Assembly (NCBI GenBank): GCA_002118135.1
Contig: BDIU01000076.1
Coordinates: 159,644-223,643, forward strand
Source: Trebouxia sp. TZW2008
Lineage: Eukaryota; Chlorophyta; Trebouxiophyceae; Trebouxiales; Trebouxiaceae
Direction: 5' to 3'
Length of the DNA: 64,000 bases
Shown: positions 1,515 through 61,300 of the stretch, piece by piece
Layout of the letters: the number at the start of each line of letters is the position of its first letter
Numbering within the stretch: position 1 is the stretch's first letter
Notes under the pieces: model-generated
What the model saw: the letters and a program-made list of their open reading frames with translations, nothing else
Told to the model about the DNA's origin: nothing
The model's database searches: none
Program-made: the position numbers and the translations under genes

Positions 1515-3741
1515 TCAGCCCAAGTACTCCTTTGTCTTTGGGTCCCTGAACATGGGGTCTCGCACTGTCTCTACCACCTTCCCAGCAGCTGCAATGTCCC
1601 CCTGCAGTTCACAACAAGCCCATCATTGTTGCAATTTATGATTAGATCAGCACTGAGTGTGAGATTTGCTCAAAATCGTCCCACAGTGTACAGCAAAGCC
1701 ATCATTCAGACAAACAACCACTACAATATCTCACACTGTTTCTGCTACCTTTGCTGCAGCTGCAGTGTCCTCCTGCAATGTAAAGCAAGACCATGGTTGT
1801 CACCCAGATTTACATCTGTAACATGTACCGTCACAAGTGCAAAGTTTGCAAAGCGTGCATGTCAGCACTTTCCCTGCAGCTGCAATGTCCTACTGCAATG
1901 CAAAACAAGCCCATCACTGTTACAAACAATCACAAAAATGAAGCCATTGTACGATGTGCCGTGTCCTGCTGCAGTGTACAGCAAAGCCATCATTGATGCA
2001 AACACAGGCAACAATCTTGAATTGCTCATGCCCCCAGAGACTCCTCTTAAAACCGTTGACCTGGTATTGACTTGTCAGTTGCAGTGATTTCTGTTTCTTT
2101 AATGGCTGCTGCCCCCAGAGACTCCTGTTGACACCGTCGACCTGGTGTTGACTTGTCCTTTGAAGTGCTTTCTGTTGCATGTGCCGTTGCAAGTGTCAAG
2201 TGTGCAAAATATGCATGTCAGATACCAAACTGGAAATGGCAGCATGGGGGCTCAAGAAGGACACAATGCTCAAAAGTGTTCCTGCCAGACATTGCACTCA
2301 ATGCTTGGTGACAATTCGAATATAGCAAAACCCATGGGCCAAACTAGCATGCATTTTATAAACTGAATGCACTTGTTGCACCCACCTCAGGCACATTGAA
2401 CTTCTGTAGAGCCCCAACAAGGTGTTTCACAATCACGTCAAAGTGATGGTCGTTCAGCCCTTTGTTCCTGACAAGCTTCTCGTGTGCTCGCCACATATCC
2501 CTGCCATGGTACTCCTCTGGACCGCCAAAAGCATATGTCATGAAACCTACCTGTGCCCCACCAGTTATGAACATTGTTAAGGGCAGGGTAAGCGTGAGAA
2601 TTTGAAGTAGTTTGTGCCTTAGTCACATCATAAGTTGTGAATTGTATTTATGTGCTGTATCTGATTCACAACAGGAGTTGTGGGTTGCGTAAATGTGCTG
2701 ACCCACAAAACCATGGGTGCTCCTTGCCAGATCAATGACACAGCTGACTCTGCAATGCTGACCTTCACTGTCAGTGTGTGTTCATGCTGTGTGTATTGCA
2801 GTTTGCCTTTTGCAGTGTGCGAGACTCTGTAGTACAACCTTATGCAGTGCTGGCAGCAAAGCAGATTGTTCACACAATTGTGAATTTGCTTTTGAGATGC
2901 ACATGTATGCAGAGAGTCCCTTCATGTCTCAAAGGCTAAAGCATGTGGCGCCATGCAAACAGAATCCTGCTTGCAGCTCAACAATGCAACATACAGCCCC
3001 AAACATTGAGCGTCCAGTACACCTGAAAGAGAGTGATCGGCATGTTGCATGCACTCTTTATGCTTGACAGACGCAACTTGATGCCATCTGCTGCAAGTGT
3101 GTTTACCAGCAATTAGACTGCCGGTGAGACCATGCAGCCAGAATTCTGCCTTGGACATTGAGCATGCAGAGCCACTGTGAACATGTGATGGGCATGCTTC
3201 AGGCAAATTCCATGCATGACACATGCAAACCAATGCCATCTGCAAGCTTATTTAGTGGGAACTGGGCTGACTGGCCATTTTGGCGAATTGCTTGCCACAC
3301 GGCCGCTTTACCTGGTGAGCCTTCAAGCTCTGCTTGTTGATGCCCTCAAAGAAGCCTTTAACCTCGTCGTCAGCGAAAACGCGGCTGTAGAACTCGTCTA
3401 CGACCGCCTCAATTGCTTCCTTGCCGCCCAACTTCTTGTACATGGTTGGGGGCGACTTCTTCTCATGCGTGTGCTCACCGGCCATGCCGACATCTGCAAT
3501 GCGCAGCACAGATACGAGATTGGCATGCGCCAAGTAAAGCTGTTTGAGAACCAGCCTGCGGCAAGCTGAAATTCCGCTCTGCAACGGGTGCAATCCATTT
3601 GACTGACTCACCGGTGGTCTGCACAGCCCGGCCGTTCTCTCCTGTACCTGCGCGACGTCTGCTGGGTGTTCGAAAGCTGGTTTTGGGGCGGGACATCAGC
3701 TGTCGCGGCAGAGCATGGGCAGAGATGCCTATCGTACCCAT
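1515..3741 (-). CDS. truncated (2/2) haemoglobin, group 1, with N-terminal targeting-like extension
   Basis: Four exons: 3612-3741, 3312-3493, 2386-2550 and 1515-1601 (187 aa; phases agree). Exon 1 encodes a 43-residue basic, Ser/Arg-rich leader (MGTIGISAHALPRQLMSR...) resembling a chloroplast transit peptide. The globin core follows: the B-helix segment EFYSRVFADDEV supplies the family's B9-B10 Phe-Tyr pair (about 78-79). TYAFGGP marks the loop after helix E, and RAHEKL carries the proximal haem-binding His (about 127). The family reversibly binds O2 and NO, and in green algae members take part in NO dioxygenation linked to nitrate metabolism. Plastid location is inferred. The last intron carries decayed copies of the exon 4 acceptor junction. 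Confidence 0.93.
1730..2000 (-). repeat. pseudo-exon copies of haemoglobin exon 4 acceptor junction
   Basis: Two good copies (about 1730-1795 and 1840-1925) and one poorer copy (about 1950-2000) repeat the last intron bases, the acceptor AG and the first ~40 bases of exon 4 (real junction at 1601/1602). All lie inside intron 3, just upstream of the real exon. One copy still has an open GAGGACACTGCAGC start after TTGCAG; others carry a TAG right after the acceptor. Confidence 0.8.
2025..2173. repeat. two-copy ~75-bp direct repeat in haemoglobin intron 3
   Basis: The segment containing CCCCCAGAGACTCCT and TTGACCTGGT occurs at about 2025-2095 and again at about 2101-2173 with a few substitutions. 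It lies fully inside the last haemoglobin intron and has no coding support. Confidence 0.8.
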
Positions 3742-4608
3742 ATGTGTGTGTGGATTGCAGCTGCAGATAGTTGAACCGTGAGGTTCAAGTTCGGTGTCTT
3801 GCAGGTCAACTCCCGAGCTCCAAAAGTTGCCTTTTGCTCTCCCGACTACTTACCCTGCAGTCTTGTCGATACACAATCAGCGCTTCGCGACAGCGGCGAT
3901 GGTACTGCTCGTTTTGTGCGTGCGTAACTGACTACACCGAGTCGTACGGGCCCCTTTACGTTGAGCAGGTGAGGTCTGATGCTTTTACGTAACCTTACCT
4001 CAAGCGCAGCATGATTGCATGGCATAGCTTTCCAGCAGTATCTTCGCCTTGGTTTGAGACGCCATGAGATTTACAGCAAAGGATGAATGGATGCAGAAGC
4101 AAAGGAACGACGAGATACAGAAATACTGCCGCTGCTGTTGATCAAGAGTCAGCAGCACGTGTGAGCTTGACAGCAGACACAACACCATGGGAAATGCTTC
4201 TATTGATATGCCACTCAAACTTTGTGCTGTTACAGCTTCTGCATCACAGAAACCATATGTCTGTCGGCATCAAGATGCTGCAGCATGACATTGCTTCTGC
4301 ACAAGGTGCAGCAGAGTACCGAGCCTCTGCAGCTACTTATCAGGCAGACAGTGCCACTTACTGTACCTGTGATGTTGGTCTTTATTGAGCTTGACAAACG
4401 CTGACCGCAATTATGCCAAAGCCATCATCAGATCATTTGTGCATGCATTCAAACGCCTGATTGCATGTGGCAACTGCTCATGCCAGCACACCTTGACTGC
4501 AATTCTGATGCACCTAGTCATGCTGCATGCATGTGCTTGATATGTGCAGGCAGGAGAAACCTCAATAAAGATCTTTCAAGGCTGTCTTGGTGTACAAGCT
4601 GTCTCATG
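3742..4608. other. intergenic: haemoglobin promoter side and KCTD 3' side
   Basis: No splice-supported coding sequence was seen. TGTAA motifs on the minus strand at 4230-4234 and 4071-4075 are candidate polyadenylation signals for the KCTD gene. The region next to 3741 should hold the haemoglobin promoter, but no TATA-like element stands out. Confidence 0.4.
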
Positions 4609-6529: not shown

Positions 6530-8390
6530 TCAAAGGTCAGCTCCAATACTGCAATGGCAGCAGCATACAGCACCCACAATTGGCACATGGACAGTTTGCT
6601 CTGAACCTGAGTATACCATGTATCTTCTGCATGATCAGGACTGCAGCAACAAGCACTGCAATTACGCTGATTAGCCTGTGTAGCACAGAACTCAGCTCTG
6701 ATACAGCAATGACAGCAGCAGATGCAAAGGTATTTGCTATGCAGCACATCTAGCAAAAGGGCTGATCCTACGTAGCAATGACAACTTCAACACAACAATG
6801 CCAACAGCAAGAAACATCCGCATCAGCAAATGCATGCAACATGTCAGCTCCAAAGCAGCAATGCCAGCAGCAGGCGACATCTGTAGTATCCAAGGCAGGC
6901 AAAAAGTCCGCTCCGACAGAGCAATTCCAACAGCATATTCTGCAGCAAAAGCAGGCTTAGCCTAAGCTCCAACACAACAGCGCCAGCAGCAAGCAGCAGC
7001 ACAGCAGCAAATGTTTGCAAAATGCCATCTTCAATACAGCAATGCCAGCAGCAAGCAGCAGCACAGCAGCAAATGTTTGCAAAACGCCATCTTCAATACA
7101 GCAATGCCAGCAGCAAGCAGCATTTGCAGCAGCAGCAAGAGCAGGCAACATGTCAGCTTCAGCATGACAGCGCCAGCTACAACACAGCAATGGCAGCAGC
7201 AGGCAGCATCTACAGCAGCAAGTTCAGGCAGAAAGTCAGCTCTGCCCAAATGCAGCAATGCCAGCAGCAAGCAGCAAAGGCACGTAACATGTCAACTATG
7301 ACAAAGCAATGCCCGCAGCAAGCCGCATCCACAGCAACAAACGCAGGCACAATCTCAGTCTCAACACAGCAAGCAGCATATACGGCAGCAAATGCAGGCA
7401 AAAAATCAACTACACAACAGCAATGCCAGCAGCGAGCAGCACTCACAGCAGCAAAAGCATGCCCAAAGTCAACTCCAGTGTAGCTTGCCAGCAGCAAGCA
7501 GCATATGCAGCAGCAAATGCTTGCAAAATGTTGCTTCCAATGCAGCAGTGCCAGCAGCAAGCAGCATTTACACAGCAAGAGCTTGCAAAATGTTGACTGC
7601 AATATAGCTATGTCAGCAGCAAGCCGCATTTACAGCAGCTAATGCTTGCAAGTTGTCAGCTCCATCAGAGCAACGCAACGCCAGCAGCAGGCAGCATCCA
7701 CAGTAGCAAAAGCCTCATGTGTCCAGCTCCAACATAGCTTTGACACAGCAACGACAGCTGAAACCCAGCAATGCCAGCAGCCGACAGCATCTACAGCAGC
7801 AAAAGCAAGCAACATGTCACTTCTAGTGCAGCAATACCAGCAGCAAGCAGCACTCACAGCAGCAACAGCCCAAAGTCAACTCCATCATAGCTTGCCAGCA
7901 GCAAGCAGCATACACTTGCAGAATGTCAGCTTCAACACAGCAGTACCAGCAACGAGCAGCATTCACAGCAGCAAATGCAGGCAAAGTTTCAGCCCCAATC
8001 CAGCAATGTCAGCAGCAAGCAGCATTTGCAGCAGCAAAGGCAGGCAAGATTTCAGCCCAAATACAACGACATCAGAGGCAGGCAGCGTTCAAATCAGCAA
8101 AGGCAGGCAGCGTTTCATCCCTGATACAGCAATATGTCAGCTTTGATGCAGCAATGCCAGCAGCAGGCAGCATATGTTGCAGCAAATGCAAGCAACATGT
8201 CATCTTCACTGCAGCAATGCTAGCAGCAACTACCACGGCAAATGCAGGCAAATTTTCAGCTCTAAAAGTGCAATGCCAGCAGCAAGCATCATCTACAGCA
8301 GCAAAGGCAGGCAAAGTTGCAGCCCAAACAGCAACGTCAGCAGCAGGCAGCATTCACAGCAGCAAAGTCAGGCAAAGCCAGCCACCAGGC
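6530..8390 (+). repeat. 63-bp minisatellite with a 21-codon unit
   Basis: A long CAG-rich tandem array. Neighbouring units are exactly 63 bases apart where I measured them (7927, 7990, 8053, 8116), with about 26 or more units. In one plus-strand frame a unit reads roughly SAPIQQCQQQAAFAAAKAGK. Runs of two to eight units stay open (for example 7022-7483, 7646-8146 and 7923-8405), but in different frames because of indels and stops. No start, splice sites or flanking exon support a functional gene. The first ~250 bases are more degenerate. It lies between the KCTD and cupin genes. Confidence 0.9.
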
Positions 8391-11095: not shown

Positions 11096-12975
11096 TCAGG
11101 CCTTGAGCTTCTTCCAAACATAGCGACCAAAGTTGCCTGTGCCAGTAGCATATTGTGCATAGCACCAGCCAGCCCAGTGAGGCACTCCGAAGAAGTCTGG
11201 TCTATCATAGTGCCACAGATGCAACACGTTTACAATGAAGGTCTCTGTAAGGGGCGCTCCAACAGTCAACAGGGCTGCCAGGAACAGCCCTTGCTTAGTG
11301 TTGTCAAAAGCCTTCCAGTTGAGGAATGCTGTGACTGCAAGTATGCCTGAGCACTGCCAGTGGGGAAAGTCATTCAGGTAGATGTAGCCGCTGAGCAGGA
11401 ATGCTGATACAATGGATCCCCACATAAGCAGATTCCATGCTAAGCTGCCTGCTTTGCCGTCTGAGTTTACGGCAATGGTGGCTGGGTCACCTGCATTGTA
11501 CTCATCAGCTAACACCTGCACAAGGACAGTAACAATAATCATTTTCAATACACTTCTAGCACAAGTGCTAGGTGTGTGTGACCCAAGTCCTGTTCCGCCA
11601 GGCAGGCTTGTATAAAGCCTCTCTGCTAGGGGCAAAAGACAGTGATGGACAAATGGGAGTTTGGTCCAGCAGCCAACCCTGATACTTTCCTCACACCTTG
11701 CAAGCTGTAATAACTTGCTGCCAGCTAGAAGTTTGCAGGATGTGCGTTGTCAGACACAATACAGCAACAGCAATGACACCTGTGAGCATTCATGTGCAGC
11801 TGGGCTAGACAAAATGATGTAGCCAAGGTGATAAGTGTACTATGTGGGCACGATTGACCCCTTGGTCATTCAGCATCAGGATTTGGTCAGGGCTGATATG
11901 CATGTGTAGAGCAGATTACTTGTTTAGAGGATAGCTTTGAACATACAAAAGACAAACATGCCTTTGCAAAAGGCTGCAATAAAATATGCACAGCAAAATG
12001 CTTGGCACCCCTTAAGGCATGCATCAAGTACATTGACCAGCAGTACAGAGTACATGTACCTAGTAACCTCACTGGCAAACATGATGATCAGTGTGGTGGC
12101 AAGCATCACAGAGTACATGCATAAATTACCTGTAGGTACGGGAACAGGAGCCAGATAGGGGCTAGCAAAAGCGGTACCAAGCCAGACTCCTTTGCAATGC
12201 CAATGTCAAAAACCTGTGGGTTGTACGCTTGTATCTGTGCCTTGGAGACGTCAATGTTGAAGGTGAAATAGTCATACACCTACAGACATGGCAAGCTGTC
12301 AGGAAACCGTCATTGAGCAGCAGGATTCATTCATTCATTCATTCATTCATTCATTCATTCATTCATTCATTCATTCATTCAAGGGCATATTAGACAGGCT
12401 GAGCAGGCCCAGCTAGGTAAATGCATGTTGAGCAATAGGAGTGCTGGCGCCAGGCGTGCACAGATCATGGCAAGGTTGCCTTTGCACTCCCGGCAAGATT
12501 TCAGCATTGGCAAGTGTAAGGTGGCAAATTCAGTGCTTGCTCAATGACCATATATGCATGAACATTTACCGGATTGCTGCAGCCATGTGTTGCTGTCAAG
12601 TAGCAAGAGAAGGAAGCTGACCGGCAAGTTGGGGTTGTTATGAGAAATTTGAATGAGTGAACCAAAAGTGACCCCTGCTAGGAGACCAAGGCCTAGGAAG
12701 GTAGTCCAGGACACGTTGCTGTCATTCAAGCGTCCCTGGGCAGCTGCTAAGCCTTGGAATAGCCCTGTTTGTCGAGCTGCTTGGACTGGCTTTTTTGCCG
12801 CCTGCGCTGCTTGCTCCCCTCGTCCTTGAGCTCGCGTGGCCTGAGGTCTGAGATGAGCAGATTGGCAGGGTCTGCAGTGTTGACCCTGTGCAGCAGGGCA
12901 AGCAACGCATTTAATGCGGGCCGCAAATAGGTGATCAACACAAGCATGTCTCTTGCCGCAGATCAAAACAGACAT
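11096..12975 (-). CDS. INSIG-domain-like plastid-type membrane protein
   Basis: Three exons: 12622-12975, 12130-12279 and 11096-11515 (307 aa). The N-terminus (MSVLICGKRHACVDH... then Gln/Ala/Arg-rich, ~75 residues) resembles a transit peptide. Several hydrophobic helices follow (TTFLGLGLLAGVTFGSLI; GLVPLLLAPIWLLFPYL; LMWGSIVSAFLLSGYIYL; LFLAALLTVGAPLTETFIVN). The C-terminal part (LWHYDRPDFFGVPHWAGWCY ... TGNFGRYVW) resembles the end of INSIG proteins, where YTSPDF and GNIGRQL occupy equivalent positions. Animal INSIGs retain sterol regulators in the ER; that role should not be transferred to this plastid-like homologue. The donor after exon 1 (CCG|GTCAGC) is non-optimal and the least certain junction. 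Confidence 0.78.
12324..12380. repeat. (ATTC)n microsatellite
   Basis: About 14 uninterrupted ATTC units inside intron 1 of the INSIG-like gene (12280-12621). Confidence 0.97.
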
Positions 12976-13624: not shown

Positions 13625-16600
13625 ATGTTGGCTTGTACCGGCAAACTTGGCCTAGCTCCGATCTTCCCAGCACCAACTGGTCACAGAAGCAGTCGGATCT
13701 TTCCTCAATTTACGGACTCGCAGCGTCGTCAGATTTCTGTGAGACCGGCAGGTGGAGACTCGTTTACGCTGAGCAGACCAGAATTTCTGTCAGCAAGCTA
13801 TAGCTTGCCTCTTTGTCTTGCAGGCAGCGCAGCGTCGCCTTGCCTCCTAAACCGTCTTAGAGTCCGATGTCGCGGGGTCCACGTCGTTGCTGAGGTGAAT
13901 ATCTGTCAGCTTGCAGCTTGCTCATTACACCATTATTTTGGACTGCTTGTATGCACCCCATTGCATTTGCTCGAGCCATTTTGAGCCTGCACCTTTGCTG
14001 CAGGCACAGCAGGAGCAGCAGGAGCAGCACTCTCCACGTTCTGCAATCACGCAGCGGCGTGTCAGCTTCAGGACCCAGCATCAAGTGAACTTTGGAGAGG
14101 TGATCAAGATCATAGGACAGGGTCCACAGTTAGGCAAATGGGATGTACGGCATGCTCCAGGTACGTGAAGCATAGTCTGCCTGCACTCTACGCTTGCTGT
14201 ATAAGACATGATCAGATCACAAAAGGGTCTCAGGTCTCAGACAAGCCTGTGTCTTGCCTTTGGGTACGCCGCATGAAGTGCCCTTGCTATGCTGCGCCCC
14301 AGCAGCCACTTGACATTATGTTGTATTGTGTCCCTGGAACAACAGCAACGCTGACCTCTGCCGCTTTGTTGTTGCTCAACTCAAGCCAATCTTGAGGCCC
14401 CAGCTTTGCATTCTCAATGCACCTCATTCAGGTCCTGTTATTGCATTTCAAACTGACAATAAGCTTTGCATCCTCAATGCACCTCATTCAGGTCCTGTTA
14501 TTGTATTTCAATCTCGCAATAATGCGCTTGCAGCCATGGAATGGTCAGCAGAAGACAACTGGCATCTGGAGGTGGACTTGTTTCCAGGCATCACTGACTT
14601 CAAGTGCGCAGTGGTGCGCTCTGACGGCAGCGTGGTGGTGTGGGAACCTGGGGCAAACAGGACTGTAGAGGTATAATGTTTGCTCAAGTACACCTTCTGC
14701 ATGTGTGGCAGCAAGGCTTGCCATTGACTGAACATGAGAGTCAAGCATGCTTATTGCATGGAGGTCGGCTGTGTTGAATCTGTTTGAACGCTCAGGTGAG
14801 CGCCTAGATTGGCCTTTGAGACCTGCGTGGCTTTTGGACAACCCTGATGGGTGCAAAATCTTGTCACCTGTGTGCGCAAGTGCCTCATGAGCAGTCAATC
14901 TCTGTTTTACATGTGAAACGCAGCACTAGCAATGCAGGCCATGAAGCATGCATGGGAGCAGACTGTTTGCATACTTGGCCAACTGCAAAGTGTGTTTTGA
15001 TGCGACCAGGTCTGTACTGTAGGTTGCAGGTGCCTCATGAGCAGTCCAACTGAGCCATACATATCAAGTGCACCTGGAGCAACACTGCAATAACACTATC
15101 CATGCCCTGAAGTCTTCATGCAGCAGACTGCATGCATGCTTGACCTGCCCCAAAGTGCACTCTGATGGGGACTGGATTTGCCATGGTTGCAGGTGCCACA
15201 CGAGCAGTCAGACTCAGCCATACATGTCAAGTGCACCTGGAGTAACACAGGCAACACCATTCAGGCACTCAGCATGGACGAAGACGATACTGCTGATTTT
15301 GTTGCTGACAGCATGGATGAGGAAGACCATCCCGTGAGATCTCTTTCTCTTCAATCAAAGTTTGAAGGGCTGGAATGCAATCCTCTCATCTTTTTGCTGT
15401 GACTCGCTTTTATTTAGCTTGGCCTCAAAACATCAATTGCACCATGTTCCACCTGTTGGGTTTATGTTGCAATTCTTGCAAGTCTGTTAATGGGTGTGTG
15501 CTACCAAATGTATTGCAGACTGCCATTCATGTGCTTGTCAGCATTCTGGCACAAATGTGCTTGGCGCTTGCTGCATCCGACAGTCCCAATGTGTGCAGCC
15601 ACCTTTGGCAGGTTGCAACCCATGTTCCTGTGAGCATGGCATAGCAGCCCCCAGTGCCCAGTGCTTTGTTCACTGTGTCTTTCGAACAAACCAAACATTC
15701 ACCAGCATGCCAGCCATCGAGACAAGCTGAATGTGGCATTTCAGTTCAAGATACTGATAGATGAGATATCTAGCACAAATGCTGCATACGTATGTGTGGG
15801 TCACTGCGCATGGCACCACAGGGCACATTCATGATGTATGGGCAAGCCAGGGCGTCAAGCAGCATGCCCAACAATGACACAGACTCACCTGTGGTGCCTG
15901 GCAGCACTCAGCCAGAGAGCAGCCCTGAGAAGCGGCAGGGGGAGTTCAGTGATGTTGACGAAGGAGACCTGGAAAAGGTAAAGCACTAGACTGTAACTGA
16001 ATTTTGTCTTTGCTGAAGCCATTGCTGATGGATGGTGCACCCGGCACAGGAAAAAATCAACGCAGCAGTGCAATACAAGTGTGGCTCTGGTCATCAGCTG
16101 TGTTGCAAGACCTGTTGTTGGTCAAGTAGATCTGGACCAAGCTTCTGGCTGAGATGGGCTGCAAGACTGAGTGGGTCTGTCAAACCAGCACCACAGCATC
16201 TGCTAAAGTTATGGAGCTCCGTCAGGTTGCTTCGCAGCTTCATCAACCCTCTTTCTTCAATCAAATGAGTGCTCTGGCACAAAAGGATCAGGGGTCAGAT
16301 GGGCAGCAATCATGTTGTTTGCAAGGGCAAGGAAGGAAATGCCTGCAGTAATCCCTTTGTATCAGAAGTGCAGGCAAATGAAGGCCAGGCGGGCAGCAAC
16401 CGTGAGAGGGTGCGCCAGCAATCAGGCGCTGGTGGCATCACCTTCCTGCCTTGCTTTCCGCCTTGCTGACCCTGGTTTCATCATTGCCTTTTCTTCTTTT
16501 CTGTGCTCTCCCTATGCCTTGGAAGTTCAGGCAAATGAAGGTCAGATGGGCAGCAACCAGGAGTGGGTGCAGGAGCAATCAGACACTGGGCAGACACGAG

Positions 16601-19600
16601 ACAGCGCCTCCCTGCCTGTCCTTTTCTCCTTTGAATTGTCTGCCTCCTTCTTTGCTCTCTTCTTTGCTTTTCCTTCACTCTCTTTTCTTTGACTGTATGC
16701 TGGAAGTGCAGGCAAGCAAGGGCCAGATGCGCAGCAACCAGGAGAGGGTGCAGCAGCAAGGCAGTGGCCAGAAGGACGCCACCACCTCCCTTCCTTTTTC
16801 TTCGCTTCTTTTCTTTTCTTTTTTGTCCTTTCTTTTGTATTGCCTTTCTGTTGCAAGTGCAGGCAAACCAAGGCCAGATGAGCAGCAATGGAGACAGAGT
16901 GCAGCAACAGTCAAAAAGTGGGCAGAAGGGAGCCACTACCTCCCTGGCTTACTTTGTCTCCTTTTATGGTTTGTTTGTTCATCAATCTTTGTATTTGTAG
17001 GCAAATCAAGGTCAGATGGGCAGCAACAAAGAGAGGGTACAGCAGCAATCAGGCGCTGGCCAGAAAGAGGCAACCACCTCCCTGCCGGGCAAACGGGAAT
17101 CAGGGCAGCGGGACCAGTCTGGTGTGCAAGATGACAATGCTCAAGGACAGGTCTGCTTTCATTCCAAGAATCATCTTCGTTTGGAGACGGTCTCTACGAC
17201 ATGATTTGCACTGTCCCCAAGCGCTATCATGTGCAGGATACAGTCTAAGAACTGGTGAACAGCCATCAGGACAGCGCAATCAGTATGACGTGCAAAATGA
17301 TGTTACTCAAAGACAGGTCTTCCTTGATGACATCAGTCCTGAGGTTTTGAAGCAGCCTTTATGACCGTGTCTGCTTTGCGCATTGGTTGTGTGCTTGTAT
17401 TGCATGTCATGCCTGCTTTCTCTTGCCTGCCTTGGAAACAGACCAAGGGCTGCAGGACCAGTCTGGTGTGCAAGATGACAGCGCTCAAGGACAAGCCTCA
17501 CTGCACGTCAGTACTGTGTCCTGAGGATGGCGCCATGCAACCTGCAAACGGATGCCTGGGCTATAATGTCTCACAGTCATTGTTTGGGAAATCTGTATTG
17601 ATCAATGCCAAACTGATCTGTGACATCATATCGACATGTCATTGGCGTCTTGTCAATGGTCATGTCGGTTGCAGGATTTGGCACCTGGGCAGGGCGTGCA
17701 GCTGGATGAGGTAGAAAGCGGCGACCAGGATCTCAAAGAGAACCCTGCCTCCTCCAGGAACCCTAAGCCAGGCCTGCCAAAGGTATTCCCTCCTTGCACC
17801 CACTTGCATCTGCCGTCATGCATGAACAACACGCAGTTACGCATGCCATCATGCACTCACATGTGTCAGATCAAAAGGCACACAGCACACCAGCCCAGGC
17901 AGTGACAGTCTCACTTTGGTAGCTCTTGTTACTGAATAAACAGCTTCAGCTCCAAGTCCTTCTGCTGCGTGATGCCATACTTCTTGAGCAAACAGCTGCA
18001 GCAAGTGATTAACTCTAAGCTTGTAGGTCACTCTGTGCTCACTGCACTGCTTTTCATCATGTCTGACAGGACTTGCAGTTACTGGCTGATGTCAGGATGG
18101 TCATTGCATTGTCATGCAGCAGATATGTGCATCAATGTAATGGCAGCCTGCGTGAACAGCAGCAAGTCAGCATTTCAGCTTGTGCAGCAACTCAGCATCT
18201 GGAGCCATGCAGTATAGTCCCTCACTGACAATTGCTGTGTTGCTGTGTTACAGGCCTTCAGCAATGAACAACCATCCAGCAGTGGTAGCTCAGGACAGTC
18301 ACCTGCGCAGTTGGCAGCAGCCCTGGCAGGGCTGTTGGCTGTGCCAGTTGTGGCTTGGTCAGAGTACACCCTCAAAGCTACTGGTGAGCATCGCTCTTCT
18401 TGTGTTGTGCTTGATCTCGAGTTTGCTCAGGGAGGCTTGTTCAGCGTACACTCTCAAGTCTACTGGTGAGCATTGCTCTGCTTCCATTCTGCTTGATCAC
18501 AGCTCACCTCTGGGTGGGTACGTCAGAGTGTGCTCTCAAGTCTAATGGTGAGTCTTACTCTGGCTCTACCATGCTTGACTGGACAACATGTGTAAAATAT
18601 ACACCTCATGCTGCTGTGCAGTGTCTATGCAGTTTCAGAATGTCTTTCGTTTGCAGCACACCTGTGAAAAGTTTTTGCAGCTGTGTAGTCTCAGAGCATG
18701 GCTAGCTACTCAAGTGCTTTGCAGCTGGTCTGCGGCATTGATGCAACTGCAGATGCTCTTGGCACCTCTGACATCCTTTAGCAAGGCGTCCCAAAACTGA
18801 AGATCCTGATGCAGGCTAGCCCAGGAGGATTGCTTGGGGCTGCAGAGGGGGTCAGCTCCCTGATGCAAAAGTCAGTTCACAATTTTGAGCAAACATATGT
18901 CATCTTGCTGCAGGGTGTGGGTTGCCACCTGGCCCAGGGGATTCACTGGGGGCTGCAGAGGGGTTGAGCTACTTGACTATCGCTGCATCGGCCATCTGGA
19001 GTGTGATCTCAAAGCTGAGGCCTGGCCGCAGGCTGACCCGTCGTCTGTGCCAACACTGACCAACATCATCCAGACTTGAGAGTCTTGCTGCAGGCTGTGG
19101 GTTGCCACCTGGCCCAGGGGGTTTACTTGGGGCTGCAGAAGGGTTGAGCTACCTGACTGTTGCTGCACTGGCCATCTGGAGTGTGACGTCAAAGCTGAGG
19201 ACTGGCCGCAGCTTGCCCAGCGGTGAGACAAGCTTGTATGCTGAGCAGTCACAACTCCAGATGCTGAGCACTGACAACTTTGCATGCTTGGCAGTCACAA
19301 CTTGACCTGCTCATCACTCACAAGTTTGCATGCTATGCAGCAGTCACACCTTTGCATGCTTAGTGGCCGCAATCAGACTTCAGCAGTCACAGCATCACAT
19401 GCTCAGCAGTCGCGACTTGACATGCTCAAATACACAACAGTCACGACCTCCCAAGCTCAGCAGTCACACCTTCACACATGCAGCAGTCACAGGCAGAGCA
19501 ACGGCAACACTTTACGCACTCTCCTTTCAGCATGTGCTGGACAACTGTTTTGTCAGGCTGCTAAAGTTGTCCTGCTTGAATTCTAGTCACCAAAAGCAGG

Positions 19601-45400: not shown

Positions 45401-47446
45401 GTTTGCACGCCGCCTCAACCAAGATGTGGCCTTTTCAGACATTGAAGAGGTGCTGGTGCTCATCAACCAGGTGCCCAACTGCAGACCTTGGTCTTTTCAT
45501 GCGTTCAACTTCACCATCTTCCGACTTGTCAACAAGAATCCCAAAGCAATCAGCACTCCCCAAAGCAAATATGTTGAACTGTCTTACACCAGTTTTTTCA
45601 ACTTGTCCCAAGTGGTGAAACCACAGCATTTGCAATCAGCACAGGGCATATCATGACTGTCTATTCTGTGTGTGCTTCTCTCTTGTCATCTCTTTCTGAT
45701 ACAAGTCTTCTGGCGGCTGTTGCTGTGTATGGCCTGTGCTGCTCTGCAGTGGATGTAACGAGCTGTGCTTCAGAACCCAAACCCTGTGCTGCTGCATCTA
45801 ATCACTACCCGGCGAGCCTGGCAGAAAGCTATCAATCACATTTGGTCCAACTGCTACAAGTGGCTTTTCAAGGTCCCAAAGCCACAGCTCACATCAAGAC
45901 AATCACTGCCATCAAGACAAACTCATGTACCTTGCATTGCAGATGTATGCAAAGCAAGAGGAAGAGCACACCGAGGAGCTCCAGCAGCAGCATGCCAAGT
46001 GTGCACACACGCTCAGACGCCAAGCTGCCAACGCTGAGCCTTATTCACAGGTCAGCATTGCTAACCAAGCAATTGAGGTGCATGTGGTCATTCATTACAC
46101 AAGTTGCAGACGTGTTCACTGTCACATGAAGAATGTGTGATACAAGTATTTTCCAGAGAGGCATTATCATTAATCCCAAGCAGTGCCTGATAAACTGTCT
46201 AGGACCTTAGCTGATTGTAGACAGTGTCTGTCTGGATGTAGTTGCGTGACAAGCAGGTCATAGCGCACCTGAAAGCATAGCTGGCTCAAGCTCAGGCCTG
46301 CAGGAAACATCCCTCCAGGGCTGGTAGCAGAACGATTCTGATCTCGAGCAAATTTTGTCACACTCAAATCGGGCCCTGCAATTTTGGTCACAATGTCTGT
46401 CTGGATGTAGGTGCGTGACAAGCAATTCATAGCGCACCTGAAGGCACAGCTGGCTCAAGCTCAGGCCTGCAGGAAACAGCCCTCCAGGGCTGGTAGCAGA
46501 AAGGCCCAGGCCAATGTGCACATGGCCATGGAGAAGTGCCTTCACATGGATCGCCAGCTTGAAATGTAGCATTTGCATTGATTGCCTGCTAGTGTTGTAT
46601 CTTTCGTATATAAACCTGTTTTGTTGAGAGCAATTTCCTGCATCTGGAGATTCAAGTGTCAACAACAAGATGCGCGTGATTATGTGTTCTTTTGACAGAA
46701 TCTGGTAGGCTTGGCGTCTGTATTGATCACGTCATGATCATATTTTTTGTTTACCTCATGACTCTCGTGCCATGCTGTCCGGTCAAAGTGTGTGTTTCTT
46801 CTCCTTCAGGTTGGCTGGTGAGAATCAGACTTTGAAGAGGAACATGGGAGTGTACATAGCTGAGGCTCAGCGTGCAAAGCACGCACTGCAGCACAGCATG
46901 CAAGCCAAGGGCAGGTCAGCTGAGGAGCCCTGCAGCCCTTGTGCTTACTCACCTGCTGACTCAGCACAGTCAGCTCAGCTTAGTCAGCCTGACCACATGA
47001 GTCCACACGTGTCGCAGCCGCACCACCATGCACATCATGGGCGTGATTCTCAGCAGCATGACTTGAGGCATTATAAGCAGCAGGATACAGATACTCAGGC
47101 TGCAAATCCTGACAGCATAGCAACAGCACATGCAGCGCCTTGTGCTCAAGTTGCAAGGGCCAAAGGACAGCAGCAGCAACTGATAGACCAACAGCAGCAA
47201 TCTGCTGATGATGCAGCTGCTGATATGTCACTGCAGACTCAGCAGGGTTTAGTCAGCCGGCCGATGAGTCATGTCAGGCAGGCGTTGAGTCATGTGTTTG
47301 AGTCATGCCAGGAGCACAGCTGTGGGGCAGCAGCAGCTGACGCAGAAGGCGATGAGGCATCAGCTTTTGCAGATATGACGGGTGGATATTTGGATAGCAG
47401 GGGGAATCCATCTCCCGGAGCTGCCAAATTTGCCTTTGCCAGGTGA
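42422..47446 (+). CDS. multi-exon coiled-coil protein of unknown function
   Basis: Eleven exons: 42422-42525, 42619-42729, 42860-42931, 43356-43486, 43969-44281, 44955-45112, 45361-45470, 45774-45872, 45943-46050, 46411-46565, 46810-47446 (665 aa, phases agree). The N-terminal part repeats an AQELKDRLRF / AQELQDRFNF motif. Residues about 95-180 (VQDLQDQLHQARQVISHLAS; ECQRLQSENIALRQML) are a clear heptad coiled coil, followed by a basic Ser/Arg-rich linker, a possible folded segment (AWVPSEMVEVVTRFARRLNQ), more coiled coil (YAKQEEEHTEELQQQHAKC) and a His/Gln/Ser-rich low-complexity tail. I do not recognise the family; a cytoskeletal or scaffold role is a guess. The 5' end may be incomplete. 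A strong GTGAGC donor overlaps the stop. Confidence 0.83.
43090..43335 (+). repeat. two pseudo-copies of coiled-coil gene exon 4 acceptor junction
   Basis: TTGCAGTGCA...CAAAGCC segments at about 43090-43125 and 43285-43330 repeat the acceptor and first ~35 bases of exon 4 (real start 43356). Both keep the CAG acceptor; the second is followed by an in-frame TGA. Confidence 0.85.
43580..43910 (+). repeat. three pseudo-copies of exon 5 acceptor junction
   Basis: Copies near 43590, 43709 and 43845 repeat the acceptor and 30-80 bases of exon 5 (TGACT...AGTCATGAGC core). The 43709 copy is nearly identical over ~75 bases (LTAGHERATSLQCTARLYHQ) and open, with an intact TTGCAG, so it is a strong alternative 3' splice candidate. 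Confidence 0.9.
44440..44490 (+). repeat. pseudo-copy of exon 5 donor junction
   Basis: The end of exon 5 and its donor (TTTGAGCAG|GTTGG) recur about 170 bases downstream in intron 5 with two or three changes. Confidence 0.85.
44675..44785 (+). repeat. pseudo-copy of exon 6 acceptor side
   Basis: A ~90-base copy of the start of exon 6 (LEYESALVNSSSP against LEYETALVSCNSP in the exon), 270 bases upstream of the real acceptor at 44954. Confidence 0.88.
46205..46330 (+). repeat. pseudo-copy of exon 10 acceptor junction
   Basis: A ~110-base near-copy of exon 10's start with the same GGATGTAG acceptor, about 190 bases upstream of the real exon (46411). An in-frame TAG eleven codons in disables it. 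Confidence 0.9.
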
Positions 47447-47494
47447 GCCACAGAGAAACAAGAAAACAAAAGTCTACGCCATTAAGCGCCATAA

Positions 47495-47521
47495 GGGGAG
47501 CCTCTGTCCGTAAAGGCAGCC
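47495..47521. repeat. dispersed hairpin element, copy 2
   Basis: GGGGAGCCTCTGTCCGTAAA then GGCAGCC, about 50 bases past the coiled-coil gene stop. The stem has one mismatch relative to copies 1 and 3. Confidence 0.6.
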
Positions 47522-47669
47522 CAGGATTGATGCTCTCAAAGCAGTAACCAGCAGAAAGTTGACCTATGAGGGGTCAGCTTGAAGGCTTTTGCATCTATGA
47601 TTGGTCCTGTTGTGAGCCACAGCCTCTTAGAAAAAGAGAAAGAAGAGAAAAAGTAACGCTGTCATAACA

Positions 47670-47694
47670 GGAGCCTCTGTCTAAAGAGGCAGGC
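47670..47694. repeat. dispersed hairpin element, copy 3
   Basis: GCCTCT (47673-47678) and AGAGGC (47685-47690) form a perfect six-base stem with a six-base loop. Confidence 0.6.
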
Positions 47695-48316: not shown

Positions 48317-51300
48317 TTAAACAGCTGGATGTGAGACAGGCACCAAATTTGGCAACAAACCACTACTATTCGACCAAGGACCAAAAGGGCTATTTTGAAA
48401 ACGACTGAAGCTCTGATGTTGCCCCAAGCTCTGCATAACAAGCCAAGCAACCATTACTAACAGGGTCAGCCAGGGCAGCAGGGCATCTAAACTCCATCTG
48501 ATGGGTTCGGCCTTCTGCTTGAGGAGGGCACTTTGGCACTGCCCCTGCCCCTGCCTCTGGTGTTGAGGCACTGTGGCTGTGGAATGGCTGGGGCTGTTCA
48601 TCAGCTTCAGATGTTGGTACAATTGTTCCAGCCACATCTTGTAGAAACGTTGCATGCCCTACATCAACAAGCAAAGCATTTCAGAGCGGCAATCTGTCAG
48701 TAGATTTGCCCAGAATAGGAACTTTAGTGGTCAAATCGCAGAATGTTTGAATGTGCCTGAAGTCATGGCCAGAGTGCATAACTCGTTGCATGCCTTGCAT
48801 GAACAAGCAACATATACAAGAAAAGCGCCTTATGCCATGGCAAAAATGTGCAGCCTATAATTGCAAGATGAAGTAGAGTAACTGCATCTGCACTGGCCTG
48901 ATGCTGTGCACTTAGTCAATGCAGGTGCAATGCATTTTTTTCGCTTATGACATATCATGATGCTTGTGTATTGTGTACGCAGGCCATATCTGTGATTTGG
49001 GCACTTGCATATTGCTGTTGACTGCTAGCTGGGCCTCAAGCTCAAGCCCACCTCTGTTGAAGAGGAGTAGATGATTCCCTTGACAGGCACAGACCTTCTG
49101 GTGAAAGTATCATCAGATAGCTTTCTTGTCTTGGATATGACATGAAGTCACCTCTGTTGTAACTGACTCACACACGGCCAAGTGCTTTGTGACTAAGCTC
49201 ACCTCTATTGAAGAGGAATAGATGATGCCCTTGACAGGCACGAATCTCTTGGTGAAGGTGACATCACAGCTGACTTGCAAGCGGACCTTGTTTGAGCCCA
49301 GTTCAACCCAAACGCACCACTGCACAACGTTGTAGAAGCTGCCTCCAAAGGGCACCTGCATGGCACAGAGCCAACTGGACAATAAGTACATCTCCATTGT
49401 CATAGTGACTAACAGGGGGTCTTGCACCTGAGGTCAGAACCTGGTGTTCTCCACTATTCATGACCCACTTGAAACCCTATCACCCAGTTCTGCTCAGCTA
49501 AAATATCAAATAAACCAGGCTTTGAGGAAAATGACAAACAATGATGGAAATAGGCTGAGGCTGTTGGGTATGATAAGCAGCCTCTGGGGTTATACACAGC
49601 CAGGTAAACAGAATAGCAGCAGTTACCATGCAAGCCTCCAAAACATGCCGCAACCTTCAAATCTATTGTTTTTTGACTGTTCAATGCACACAAAGTTATT
49701 CTGAAGTGGTGCTGAGGGCTTTTGCAGAAAGACATGTAGCTACTTGTCTGACCTTCAATGTGTACACTTTCCGCTCGACCACAAAGCCGGCTGAGCTGCG
49801 ATGAACGCAGCGCTGCTTGTCAATGCAGTCGGCCTCTGAAGGACCCAGACTGTTCTTCTTCAGGGGATTGATGTACGTCTCTTCCCTCACAAGCTGACCG
49901 CCTGTATGGTGCAAAACAGCGAAACTTAGCAGAAGAGGAAGAACGGGCTGCTTGTCAGTATAGTCAGCCTCTGAAGGGCTTTGACCGTTCTTCTCCAGGG
50001 GATGTATGTCTCCTCCCTCACAAGCTTGCTGCATGCAGGGTGCAGAACAGCAAAACTGAGCAGAAGAGGAAGAACGGGCTGCTTGTCAAATTGTTGATCA
50101 AACAGATTTTTGCAGTGTTCTTCTTGGGGGGGTTGATGTATGTCTCGCTTCTGACAAGCACGCTGTCTGCAAGACGCAAAATAGTCAAACTCATCAGAAG
50201 AGGAGGAATCGGCTGCTTGTAAATGCAGTTGGCCTCTGATGGACCCCGACTGTTCTTCTTCAGGGGATTGATGTACGTCTCTTCCCTCACAAGCTCATCG
50301 CCTGCAAGGAAGAAGAGGAAAGATGGAAGAAACGAAATGGGGGAGGAAGAAGAATGGTCATGAATTCACAAGAGGAAGAATGGGCTTAGTTTCAGAAGCA
50401 GAGAAGTCTGAGCCCAATCATTGACTGTATCCAGGCACATTGACAGGTTGTTGACCAAACAAGTGTCAGCAGTGTTCTTCTTCAGGAGATTGATGTCGGT
50501 CTCCTCTCTCACAAGCTCGCTGCCTGCAGGGTGCAAAACATCAAAATTGGACAGTACGCCGGCCGGCTCGCAAGGCGCCCAGGAGGGGTGGTGCGCGTGT
50601 AGCGCGCGTCTGCCAGCCTTTTGAGGGTGGTCAGTGTTGCAAATATATATATAGCAGGCCAAAGACGCAGTGATCGAGGCCGGCTTTCAGCTTATGCATA
50701 AGTAATTGAAGAAATGGGCTGCTTGTCAATGCATTCAGATCTGAAGGGCCCAAAGTCTACTTCTTCAGGGGATTGATGTACGTCTCTTCTCTAACAAGCT
50801 TGCCGCTTGCAGGAGTGCAAAACAGCCAAATTTAGCAGAAGAGGAAGAATGGGCTGCTTGTCAATACGGGCGGCCTCTGAAGGACCCAGACTGTTTTTCT
50901 GCAGGGTATTGATGTATGTCTCCTCCCTCACAGTCTGTGAGTGATACGCAGCGAGTGATTCACAACTGCCTAAACACTAGTTCAATATAGAAAAAAATGA
51001 TGTATGTGCGTTTGTGGGTGATCTGCATACTTTGTGACTGCCTAAGCGCTGGTTTAATATGAACAAAATGATGGACGCTCATTTGTGAGTGAGGCGTGCC
51101 CCACACATTGCAGTTTGCACAGCAGATGCAAAGGATGCTTTATGGCCTAATTTACTGTACGCAAATATTGCAACAAACACTTTCAGCCAAGTGAACGTGA
51201 CGCACGCTACACATCCTGTGCCATGCTGCTTTTGACAGGCTTGCTTACATCACGTAGAAACAGCAAGAAACGCAATGCTGCACAAAAATGCATTGCTGGT

Positions 51301-57207: not shown

Positions 57208-57256
57208 CAGTGTTCATCAGCATCAGCATCATCAGCATGAGCATCATCAGCATCAA
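57208..57256. repeat. CATCAG-type microsatellite
   Basis: Imperfect run of CATCAG/CATGAG hexamers, about eight units. Confidence 0.9.
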
Positions 57257-57623
57257 GGAAACAGTGCGTTTCTGCAGGTACCATCTTGTACAACAGTACT
57301 ATACAAATACTGAACAATTAGATCATCTATCCATTGTCCTTTTTGACAGTAATGTTCCTACCCAAAAAAATAAGCTGCTTTGATAGTACACAGGGCGCCT
57401 TGTGCAGCATGCCTAACACTAGCATACATGGCTGCATGGTCTATGGCCTAGTTTCAAGACAGTCCCCCATTGCCACACGAGTGCCTGGGAGCAGGAACGG
57501 CATAGGATCTCAAGAAGCTTGTACAGTAGCAGTCGCTGGCTCTGAAAACAACACTCCTTCGTCAATCCACTGCAAAGCCTTTGCCCTGCACAAATCATGC
57601 AGTACTGATGACAGCTGCACAAA

Positions 57624-57663
57624 CCACGCAGTCATGCAGTACTAGTACTTTATGACTGCGTGG
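57624..57663. other. perfect 12-bp inverted repeat (hairpin)
   Basis: CCACGCAGTCAT (57624-57635) and its exact reverse complement (57652-57663) flank a 16-base loop that itself contains the palindrome GTACTAGTAC. Not followed by a T-run; no gene immediately adjacent. Confidence 0.85.
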
Positions 57664-58395
57664 CTAGTACTCATCACAGCAAGATTGTGCAAGACTGGAA
57701 GCTGTGGCAGACATCAAACATGGACAAGTAGTATGTACATGGGCAATCAAGCATGATTAGTCACTGGAAATGCCATGTGAACTGTGAAGCGGATCGAATC
57801 CAAGCTTGTTGAGGGAATGCGTGCTGACTGCAAAAACAGAAGCACAAAATAGTGGCATTCTTTGCATATGGCGGGATTCTCAGACAGGAAGCATGTACCT
57901 CAACTCCAGCTCATTGCAGCCCCTCTGTGCATGCTGCAGCATTTCTTGCGAAGCTGCTTTCTGCAACAACAGCATTTATTACTGAGACCGTACATCTGCT
58001 TCTTGCATTTCTGGATCCAGAGTTCCAGCAAGCATACATGTTGCTTTGGAATGCACTTGCATGCTGAGATGGCATTCAAGCAGCAAAAGCTGTCATTGCT
58101 CTGAGTGCTAGCAAGCTTGTTTGCTCTCAAAAACAAAGCTTGCTTGCTCTGTCACCTTCAAAAAGATCAGATCTCTGTCAGCAAGTATGCATATGCTCAA
58201 CCCAAGCTGTCATGCTGTGATGTCTGTATCATCAAAGTGTCTCTGACCTAATCTTGACATCCACTTTGCGCAAGCAAAGGGCACGGGCAGCACGGGCAGC
58301 ATGCACAAGCTTGCAGAGCCATTGCACAATCCGCACTGCTGCGCTCAAGTCATTTGAGCAAGACCAGCATCTACAGCATGTGCACATGCTGCAAA

Positions 58396-61300
58396 TTACT
58401 GCAATTGGCATACAGTGGACGCAAAACTACGCAGTAGCGCACGCACCTCGTTCAATGCATCTCTACTTGCATCCGCAAGAACAATCACAACACGCCCCCA
58501 TGTGACTTTGGCGTCTTCTTGGTCTGCTAGCTTGCTGATCTCCTCCAACTGAGCAGCCACATGCCTCACTGCCTCAAGCCTTTGCCTAGCCAACTTGGCC
58601 TGTACATGTAGCAGCTTGTGATAGCAGCATTGTGAGAAGCATACATTGCAGCAGCATGACTGCAGCATTGTGGCGGCTTGTGAAAGCAGCATTGTCAACA
58701 TCATGCAGTGTAGTGGCTTGTGACTGCAGCCTTCTCAGAATCATGCAGTATATTGGCTTGTGACAAACGCATTGTGGGCAGCATACACTGCAATGCCATG
58801 ACCGCAGCATTGTCAAGAGCATGCATTGTGGCGGCTTGTGACAGCAGCGTTGTGAGAAGCAGACATACAGCAGCATGACTGCAGCATTGACAAAAGTAGC
58901 ATTACAGCAGCATGACTGCAGCATTGTGGAAAACATGAAATCTTGCATGAGAAGCAACATTGTTGAAACCATGACGTCATAGTTGATGAGCTAGCACTGG
59001 TGAGATCATGTGGGGAATCCATTGAATTTGCACTCAGTATCATTAAGCGCCTTTCCTAGACTAGCAAATTGAACACACAACAACAGCAACTGCTTGGAAT
59101 GGGTTGTTCAAAGCATGACGCATGGTAAGATTGCATGACATACCTTCGCAAGATGTAGCCAACACTCCAGGCTTGTGGCATCCTTAGGCATCTTTGCATT
59201 CCAAGTTTGCTGGAATTCCTGATACGCCACCATGTCCTGCATTCATTAGACTGCAATGAGTGAGCAGCTGTAGGTCACAGTCTTGCTCGCAGTCTCGTCT
59301 GCCAGATTTGCTGCAAGGCCACCGTGTCCTGCATGACAATCATCAGACTGCAATGAGAGAGCACCTGTACTTCACTGTCAACCCGCAAGTTCCCTGCAAA
59401 TTAACGGGCTTTCACGCACTGGGAACATGCCACCTGTCTGGTAGTGGTCTTTTTGAACAGGAGAGCACTTGTACTTCATGGTCCTATTGGCAACACTCAG
59501 ACAGTCCAGTGCTCCAGTGACAAGTTAGCATCATGTATGGCCAGCCCAGGCAGCAGTGTGCTCAACAGCATTTCACGTTCCTGTTGCCAACACTTACACA
59601 GTACAAAAAGTCAATGATCCAGTGACAAGCCAGCATCATGTGTGGTCAGCCCAGGCAGCAGCGTGCTCAACAGCATTTCACGGTCCTGTTGGCAACACTC
59701 ACACAGTACGAAACAGTCAATGTTCCAGTGACAAGTCAGCATCATGTATGGTCCGCCCAGGCAGCAGTTTGCACAACAGCAAGCAATTCAGAAGCACAGT
59801 GAGGCGACAGATGCAGCCTGCAGCTGCAAAAGCAGTCCTGCACAGCATTAGCAAGCGTCAGCAGCTCACACGCTGGATCAAGCTGAGACTCAAGCTGGAT
59901 CAAGCTGAATCAAGCTGAGACTCAACTTGGATCAAGCTGCAAACAACCTGGATCAAGCTGCAACTCCAGCTGAGTGAAGCTGAATCAAGCTGAGACTCAA
60001 GCTGGATCAAGCTGAGTCAAGCTGAGACTCAAGCTGGATCAAGCTGAATCAAGCTGAGAGTCAAGCTGAATCAAGCTGAATCAAGCTGAGACTCCAGCTG
60101 GGTGAAGCTGAATCAAGCTGAGACTCAAGCTGAGACTCAAGCTGAGACTCAAGCTGGATCAAGCTGAATCAAGGGAAGAATCAAGCTGAATCAAGCTGAG
60201 ACCCAAGCTGAGACTCCAGCTGGGTGAAGCTGAATCAAGCTGAGACTTAAGCTGAGACTCAAGCTGAGACTCAAGCTGGATCAAGCTGAATCAAGGGAAG
60301 AATCAAGCTGAATCAAGCTGAGACTCAAGCTGAGACTCAAGCTGGATCAAGCCAAATCAAGCTGGATCAAGCTGAGACTTGGACTGTTGGCAAATGGTAG
60401 TGCATCAGCTGCCAAATTGAGAACAACATCACATGACAGGATTAGAGAAGTGATCAAAGAAGCTGTGCAAAAAGGAGGAGCGATGAACAGAATTTAAGCA
60501 AATGATGGATAGTGATCATGAAGCATTCGTAGGAAATATCAAGGACGTCACCACGCACATTGCAATCATGAGCAGCAAATGCGCTCACTGCAGCATTTGA
60601 TTCATGAGACAAGTGATAGCTGAACTTACCGCTTCCTCTACAGATTTCTGGTAAGCAGCAAGCTTTCTGCGAAGATCGTGCCTCTGTGCTGTTCCAAAGC
60701 TGTCCAAGTATTCGAAAGTCTCAGTTGTGATTAGGCCTAGGAACCCATCTGCCAACTTGCATCTGTGTTGAGCAAACCGGCTTTGAACAACACAAAATTT
60801 TGTGACATTCAGCAGACTTGTCTTGAAAAGGACACAAGTCTTTCACAGTCTATACAGGCCGCAGCATCTTCGATGCTTGTGTGGAATCTCTTGCAGCAAA
60901 CACAAAGCAGAATGTCGCTTGACCTGATACATTGGCAATTTTTGTGTGAGAAGCACAATGGGATAGCTTGACAATCTATGATGAAGCATGTTGCAAGCCT
61001 TGCAATCAGCTAAACCACCATCTTGCATGGCATTGTGGAAACAAATGGACGCATGATTCCTTACAGAGGTAAGCATTGCATGCATGACATGAGGCACATT
61101 TGCTAGCAGCAGTCAGGAAACTCAGGCGCATACCAGAGTCTCGCTCTCCTCTCTTGCTCGATTCTCTGCCTGCAAAACAACAGAGTTATGACAGATTGCC
61201 ATCACTGCATCATCATACAATCATGCATTGTACATGCTGACACCGCTGTTCTTCATTACTCACGACTTCAGGATCAGAAATCTGCTGACCATCATTTGCC

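Follow-up and report, generated by a model that had tools for sequence, protein, structure and literature searches.

Exon edges of the green alga Trebouxia sp. TZW2008 are frequently copied into the introns that adjoin them. We analysed a 64-kb stretch of contig BDIU01000076.1 (hereafter the window), for which an initial annotation had described introns filled by tandem copies of their own splice junctions, together with 18 further 10-kb stretches of the same genome (68.5 Mb in 527 contigs, GC content about 0.49; published Trebouxia genomes span 63-74 Mb with a GC content near 50%, according to the available text of PMC11523091). The exon-edge copies are real and reach beyond the window: a copy in its own intron was found at 78 of 567 splice-side exon edges. 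Two classes of copy are present, one apparently produced in tandem across the junction (class A) and one limited to the exon (class B).

The window and ten of the stretches (L003-L012) formed a training set of 164 kb, and the eight others (L013-L020) a held-out set to which the frozen model was applied. Genes were predicted by our own ab initio hidden Markov gene finder, self-trained and working without RNA, after a first setting that over-split the exons (1898 exons) had been replaced; it returned 37 genes with 313 exons in the training set and 13 genes with 139 exons in the held-out set, with the consensus CAG/GTRAGY at donors and TTGCAG/G at acceptors. The terminal 30-80 nt of each exon edge were compared with the adjoining intron when the latter was at least 120 bp long, and matches scoring at least 36 were counted as copies. 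Such copies were present at 53 of 397 edges in the training set (donors 25/202, acceptors 28/195) and again at 25 of 170 in the held-out set (donors 14/87, acceptors 11/83), which upholds the widespread occurrence on both strands initially described. Inverted introns and randomly chosen other introns gave no copy in either set, and within the training set the other introns of the same gene gave 6/391 (donors 2/199, acceptors 4/192) and exon-interior blocks 2/44. The density of copies varies between loci, since some of those sampled (L003, L006, L008, L013, L018 and L020) hold no pair at all. Over the training set, same-strand matches were 214 at distances of 20-1000 bp versus 37 further apart. 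Repeats made up 17.7% of intron sequence, 17.9% of exon sequence and 4.7% of the 23.6 kb called intergenic.

Six of the 78 matches sit in two stretches that were excluded from the pair sets used in the substitution, flank, offset and boundary tests, namely a CAG-rich open reading frame (6.7-8.4 kb) and the predicted exons within the array of the FSP1 gene (36.8-37.9 kb). These exclusions reduced the pairs from 78 to 72, and the rows available for the substitution and flank tests from 58 to 51; the two rates given above and the edge counts of 76/527 given below still include both stretches. The boundary test was made on 71 pairs with at least 30 nt, and the flank test on 56 pairs with sufficiently long flanks. 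For the count of repeat arrays (64), the CAG-rich array and a 22-bp minisatellite were left out and the exons of the FSP1 array masked, and the position profile omits introns beginning in the CAG-rich or FSP1-array stretch. The CAG-rich stretch itself is a GCAGCA-rich array of units of about 62 bp (6770-8376), called an open frame by the gene finder and left out of the later pair sets. Among the 72 remaining pairs, 58 have an offset of 77-210 bp, none of 211-257 bp and 14 of 258-484 bp; the first range is approximately one nucleosome repeat, a link that we put forward only as a suggestion.

Domain matches among the window genes, from Pfam and PDB searches, include Bac_globin, CBM_20, BTB_2, FIST with FIST_C, and VASt, and also FSP1. 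At 26 junctions in five of these genes (globin, CBM20, FIST, FSP1 and VASt), edges were set by hand to within about 4 nt, and nine bear an own-intron copy (Smith-Waterman score of at least 36; maximum of the reverse-complement control, 18): the globin acceptor, the second CBM20 acceptor, four FIST sites (three acceptors, one donor), both FSP1 sites that border the 36703-38375 array, and one VASt acceptor. This proportion is a biased rate, the genes having been picked by the earlier reader. The copy-bearing globin and CBM20 junctions fall within the domain matches. The globin acceptor is absent from the automatic pairs on account of a false micro-exon that the hidden Markov model placed in its array, and was checked by hand. 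Copies had been claimed in at least seven genes; they are recovered in these five and in a coiled-coil gene, and the remaining nine-exon gene was not identified for certain, a repeat over a predicted exon edge being found at 59205-59379. The main features of the window are the following.

1515-1601, minus strand: last exon of the globin gene, real acceptor side (Bac_globin match; acceptor copy score 45).
1729-2004, minus strand: decayed copies of the globin acceptor and exon 5' part, upstream in gene sense (high-scoring segment pairs 1558-1629/1729-1800 and 1575-1716/1866-2004).
15193-15248, plus strand: real acceptor-side exon edge of the CBM20 gene, the junction lying inside the CBM_20 match.
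14917-15085, plus strand: putative tandem copy of the intron end and CBM20 exon 5' part (offset 164, 74%).
16348-17086, plus strand: array of acceptor and exon 5' copies in a coiled-coil gene (predicted exon 17001-17150).
17446-17493, plus strand: exon-limited donor-side copy of 17102-17149 (0.92).
26956-27014, minus strand: copy of the FIST acceptor edge 26689-26747 (0.83; AG decayed to GG).
28059-28122, minus strand: copy of the FIST acceptor edge 27914-27977 (0.73).
29946-30031, minus strand: exon-limited copy of the FIST acceptor edge 29775-29860, stopping at the junction (0.83).
30411-30487, minus strand: copy of the FIST donor-side stretch 30638-30713 (82%).
30849-31818, minus strand: FIST array of tandem units that include intron.
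36286-36450, minus strand: FSP1 exon (VDDHLQV...), real acceptor side, colinear with a Trebouxia sp. C0005 protein.
36490-36629, minus strand: putative tandem copy of the FSP1 acceptor edge (0.77, intron homologous).
36703-38375, minus strand: array of FSP1 exon 3' part and donor, about ten units with a period of about 160 bp, the last unit in the real exon (Tandem Repeats Finder, ortholog).
38264-38437, minus strand: FSP1 exon with the real donor AAA/GTATGT (ortholog; the gene finder's edge lies 4 nt further on).
43726-43777, plus strand: copy of the coiled-coil acceptor edge 43984-44035 (0.92).
44444-44476, plus strand: exon-limited copy of the coiled-coil donor edge 44249-44281 (0.97).
46243-46332, plus strand: copy of the coiled-coil acceptor edge 46412-46501 (0.94; homology to -21 only).
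49812-50932, minus strand: array of acceptor and exon 5' copies in the VASt gene (VASt domain).

As initially described, acceptor copies lie upstream of the real exon and donor copies downstream of it; this layout adds no independent support, since a duplication could leave the mRNA intact only in such an arrangement. In FSP1, the exons that end at 38264 and start at 36450 are most probably spliced together, leaving out about nine copies, because the Trebouxia sp. C0005 protein, 74-75% identical to the FSP1-like protein of the window, aligns gap-free over the two exons on either side of the 1.7-kb array. A FIST protein labelled Astpho2 (48% identity), a label that we take to stand for Asterochloris, aligns gap-free over the 26747 junction and shows gaps of 13 and 18 residues beside the 29860 and 27977 junctions. 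These two junctions are less well supported and rest on the gene model, because the query protein lacked residues at the 27977 exon; the 29860 junction rests also on the domain match.

A piece of the last exon of the coiled-coil gene (24018-24105) occurs again 2.1 kb downstream at 26093-26180 (83%), beyond the usual short offset. The gene at 15810-24143 on the plus strand contains repeated exon-like units (18903-19031/19083-19211, 90%; 21822-22405), the coding status of each being ambiguous.

The explanation that we favour, with somewhat better than even confidence, is that local duplications place an exon edge with the splice-site core in the adjoining intron through two kinds of event, and that arrays grow later. 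A short local duplication would repeatedly put such a copy into the intron; splicing would stay with the original site, so that the copy would be intronic from birth, decay neutrally and leave a longer intron; and once two copies exist, arrays could extend by units of exon part plus spacer, as in FSP1, probably by unequal exchange. Class A would be a plain tandem duplication across the junction. Class B would be a discrete exon-limited block of about 33-100 nt, its outer edge at most 12 nt from the junction and its spacer mostly single-copy, and may arise by a local template switch or by duplicative break repair with the outer breakpoint at splice junctions.

Under tandem duplication, the intron flank of a copy must match the spacer. 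Homology between spacer and flank above the 97.5% control was found in 31 of the 56 testable pairs, most clearly in L012, L016, L017, L019 and the FIST gene, with flank identities of 0.78-0.92 in FIST, at FSP1 36450 and at L012 2292, and plain tandem duplication across the junction appears to account for some pairs, among them those of CBM20, FIST and FSP1. No such homology was seen in the other 25, including 10 of 23 young ones, even in some pairs with exon identities of 0.89-0.97 (L005 donor 2373, L012 donor 3478, L007 donor 2438 and window donor 44281). Of 30 junction arrays, 9 have a best match that spans 85% or more of the offset, so that the description as tandem copies suits this part of the arrays and not the rest. 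Spacers measure 54-162 bp in 31 of 38 pairs.

Of the 30 young pairs (exon identity of at least 0.86), 13 have homology that stops at most 12 nt from the junction; in 4 it stops within the exon, in 5 it continues 13-30 nt into the intron, and in 8 it goes beyond that. In simulations run through the same pipeline, junction-ending pairs made up 13-14% with uniform breakpoints (drawn between 40 nt on the exon side and 100 nt on the intron side of the junction), about 1% under tandem duplication and 91-94% with exon-limited blocks; the binomial probability against uniform breakpoints was 1e-4 for all young pairs and 1e-6 for those with identity of at least 0.88 (12/19 junction-ending). Sharp blocks (n = 18) also break off abruptly at their inner edge, with an identity of 0.550 beyond it versus 0.549 in the control and none of the 18 above the 95% control, which makes exon-limited gene conversion of an older and larger duplication less probable. 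That tandem duplication across the junction alone produced every case, later blurred by decay, is consistent with the pairs that show flank homology; in 91-96% of simulated tandem pairs homology reaches past the first 30 nt of intron, against the 8 of 30 observed, and we consider this reading improbable. The mechanism initially proposed therefore holds for some pairs and fails as the sole one.

The junction is enriched for copying, not unique, because deep introns hold many local copies too. Junction-containing arrays number 30 of 64, for an expectation of 13.3 when at least one copy has to be exon-free, 14.6 without that rule and 15.9 with a 1.5-fold bonus for the visibility of exons. The remaining arrays comprise 11 that are noncoding (21-25 expected), 3 that are exon-interior (6-7 expected), 1 that ends at a junction (about 1 expected) and 19 with predicted exon in both copies (18 expected), some of which may be real exon duplications. 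Match ends lie within 10 nt of a junction in 72 of 322 cases, against 42 expected (standard deviation 7.7), and within 5 nt in 41 against 23. In introns of at least 400 bp, the profile peaks in the last 60 nt of the exon (44/213, strong matches 27/213); it drops to 20/264, 7 of them strong, over the initial 60 nt of intron, and to 7/155 at 60-120 nt inside the exon. Copies occur at 76/527 splice edges versus 1/49 edges at the start or stop of the coding sequence (Fisher p = 0.013) and 8/168 exon blocks 81-160 nt inside (p = 0.0006).

These counts bear on the possibility that duplications arise everywhere, that exonic ones are purged and that exon sources merely stay visible longer, so that no preference for junctions exists. 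The local copies of deep introns speak for it, as do an expected advantage of about 1.5-fold in visibility for exon sources, which we infer from the substitution rates, and the fall-off into the exon, which by rough reasoning rather than a computed test fits the limit on offsets. The excess of junction arrays persists when exon-disrupting placements are excluded and when the visibility bonus is granted, exon-interior arrays are too few, and the junction-ending young pairs exceed what uniform breakpoints give; we therefore regard an absence of preference as unlikely. A filter against complete splice signals could trim long intron parts, but would not on its own make exon-interior copies rarer than junction-ending ones.

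Several observations weigh against the two-event explanation. Deep-intron blocks have local copies in about 10-12% of cases, and blocks at intron midpoints in 20/174 (inverted 2/174), a richness that the annotation had missed, so that the enrichment in part reflects introns at large, together with the longer visibility of exon sources. The boundary at the junction is approximate, because match ends show no enrichment within 2 nt (12 versus 10.5 expected), and because the pile-up is weaker in middle-aged pairs (8/30 junction-ending at identity 0.78-0.86; 5/11 below 0.78). The intron flanks of 38 close pairs jointly reach 0.637 versus 0.552 in the control, so that classes A and B intergrade. Microhomology of splice words receives no general support, GCAG and CAGG not being enriched at match ends away from junctions. 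Several pairs come from one gene or array (L007, L016, L017), so that the p-values overstate independence, and some exons predicted inside arrays are false, the models being ab initio and made without RNA. Empty sites would be seen only with sister genomes, so that the mechanism given for class B is a putative one.

A more specific proposal is that copying is coupled to splicing, blocks ending at the junction being written locally into the same intron from transcripts during or after their processing, or through breaks set by the splicing machinery, in nucleosome-sized steps. We hold this to be a rather doubtful possibility; if true, the introns of this alga would grow out of their own exon ends. 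The strictly transcript-linked form, in which RNA pieces ending at the splice site (splicing intermediates or reopened exons) remain tethered to the locus and template an insert, has somewhat slimmer prospects still. It would agree with blocks that end near the junction on both sides, in the same orientation and in the adjoining intron, with abrupt outer and inner edges, and with the scarcity of copies beside coding edges that are not splice sites. It fits poorly with homology that usually runs 2-9 nt past the junction, some of which the shared splice consensus may explain, with intron-only local copies, and with copy flanks that on average do not resemble the neighbouring exon: copies continuing into that exon were looked for and gave a mean of 0.566 versus 0.552 for the intron-flank control.

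The copies appear to behave as neutral intronic DNA, as had been proposed from the sequence. Copy and exon differ at codon positions 1, 2 and 3 by 0.117, 0.116 and 0.23 in 24 sharp pairs and by 0.154, 0.130 and 0.216 in the other 27; the corresponding dN/dS-like ratios are 0.39 and 0.49, about 0.5 being expected for an unconstrained copy of a constrained exon. In-frame stops are present in the copies of 13 of 51 pairs, including 6 of the 24 sharp ones. The splice dinucleotide is retained in 20/29 acceptor and 20/28 donor copies (together 40/57), which is near the proportion of about 0.76 estimated for neutral decay and does not indicate selective destruction of copy splice sites. Introns with a copy are longer, as was claimed, with a median of 503 bp (n = 63) versus 229 bp (n = 339), although longer introns offer more room for detection and the copy-free introns long enough to be scanned have a median of 304 bp. 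That the copies function as alternative or mutually exclusive exons, or are retained as decoy splice sites, could draw on the roughly 70% of retained dinucleotides; it is very improbable given the stops, the similar rates at positions 1 and 2, the near-neutral ratio, the many offsets that are not multiples of 3, the restriction of the copies to parts of exons, and the Trebouxia sp. C0005 FSP1 protein that lacks them. An artefact of the draft assembly or of the ab initio models is hardly credible, the copies diverging from their sources by 3-29%, such that no assembler built them from one locus, lying at junctions of domain-supported genes and recurring in the held-out set.

Internal gene duplications are reportedly ubiquitous, frequent and small, some of them crossing exon-intron boundaries (Gao & Lynch 2009); neither a junction-ending class nor arrays of the present kind are known to have been described there. 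Introner elements are a dispersed family of near-identical sequences that add intronic DNA on a genomic scale. Intronic DNA is likewise gained here; unlike introners, the spacers have no dispersed relatives that we found, 17 of 38 being without a second match in the 164 kb of the training set and the matches listed at other loci measuring 16-29 nt. The ten cross-locus repeats found in these 164 kb do not fall inside any copy pair of the training set.

Among systems already in print, the available text of PMC4974935 describes for the potato RNA-dependent RNA polymerase (RdRp) gene a tandem duplication of intron-exon structure and a further 83-bp duplication inside an intron. That case resembles the present ones in being a local duplication that carries acceptor and exon sequence with inherited splicing signals; it is a single case that yielded a new intron, whereas here an old intron grows, the copies are skipped, donors are copied as well and the pattern recurs across the sampled genome. 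The same text cites the tandem duplication of exonic segments containing AGGT as a source of introns (Rogers 1989; ATP2A1, Hellsten 2011). In that process too, duplicated exonic DNA turns intronic with an unchanged mRNA, but the intron is one unit with AGGT in both copies, whereas here each copy matches a site of its own kind (donor to donor, acceptor to acceptor) and lies within a larger intron, and the offset differs from the intron length (L005 donor 2373: offset 139, intron 548 bp), which does not correspond to AGGT intron creation. The near intron pairs of Drosophila, as presented in the available part of PMC2891723, share with our copies a tandem duplication of coding sequence in which one of the two copies then becomes intronic; they are short events at proto-splice sites that give a novel intron position, and here arrays of exon-edge copies lie in existing introns. 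The partial exons, the stops and the near-neutral pattern likewise differ from tandem mutually exclusive exons. The signs of a junction-spanning tandem duplication, taken as flank homology or as a ratio of match length to offset of at least 0.85, are confined to the 31/56 pairs and 9/30 junction arrays reported above.

No genome with pervasive exon-edge copies in introns appeared among the titles and beginnings of abstracts listed in literature searches that left subscription papers mostly outside; Gao & Lynch 2009 may contain related counts. Word searches of the available text of three lichen-alga genome papers (PMC11523091, PMC12712428, PMC6652019) returned no passage on such copies; long-read assemblies of several Trebouxia strains are publicly available (PMC11523091, PMC12712428). 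Isolated junction-spanning duplications are already in print. What remains surprising beyond a tandem model is the exon-limited, junction-ending class.

The lengthening of introns by means other than transposon insertion is poorly known. With about one in seven tested exon edges bearing its own copy, hundreds to thousands of events can be extrapolated genome-wide, and each would be datable, the real exon serving as a conserved reference from which rate, offset, breakpoint position and splice-site competition could be read. The junction-ending class raises the question of why copying stops at the splice site, and the copies offer ready-made competing splice sites for studies of site choice.

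Other repeats were also noted. In the window, a minisatellite with a 10/22/32-bp unit of GCTGGATCAA-type occupies 59872-60374, a perfect (ATTC)14 microsatellite 12325-12381, and a poly-G run with two N, probably a weak spot of sequencing, 28311-28361. Short dispersed repeats at 11554-11611, 12360-12425 and 47463-47525 are shared with L004 638-695 (86%), L006/L008 and L012 8960-9022 and may be small mobile elements. In L007, a 1.3-kb self-match (2928-4601; 91%, offset 371 bp) runs through predicted coding exons and possibly belongs to a repeat-containing protein.

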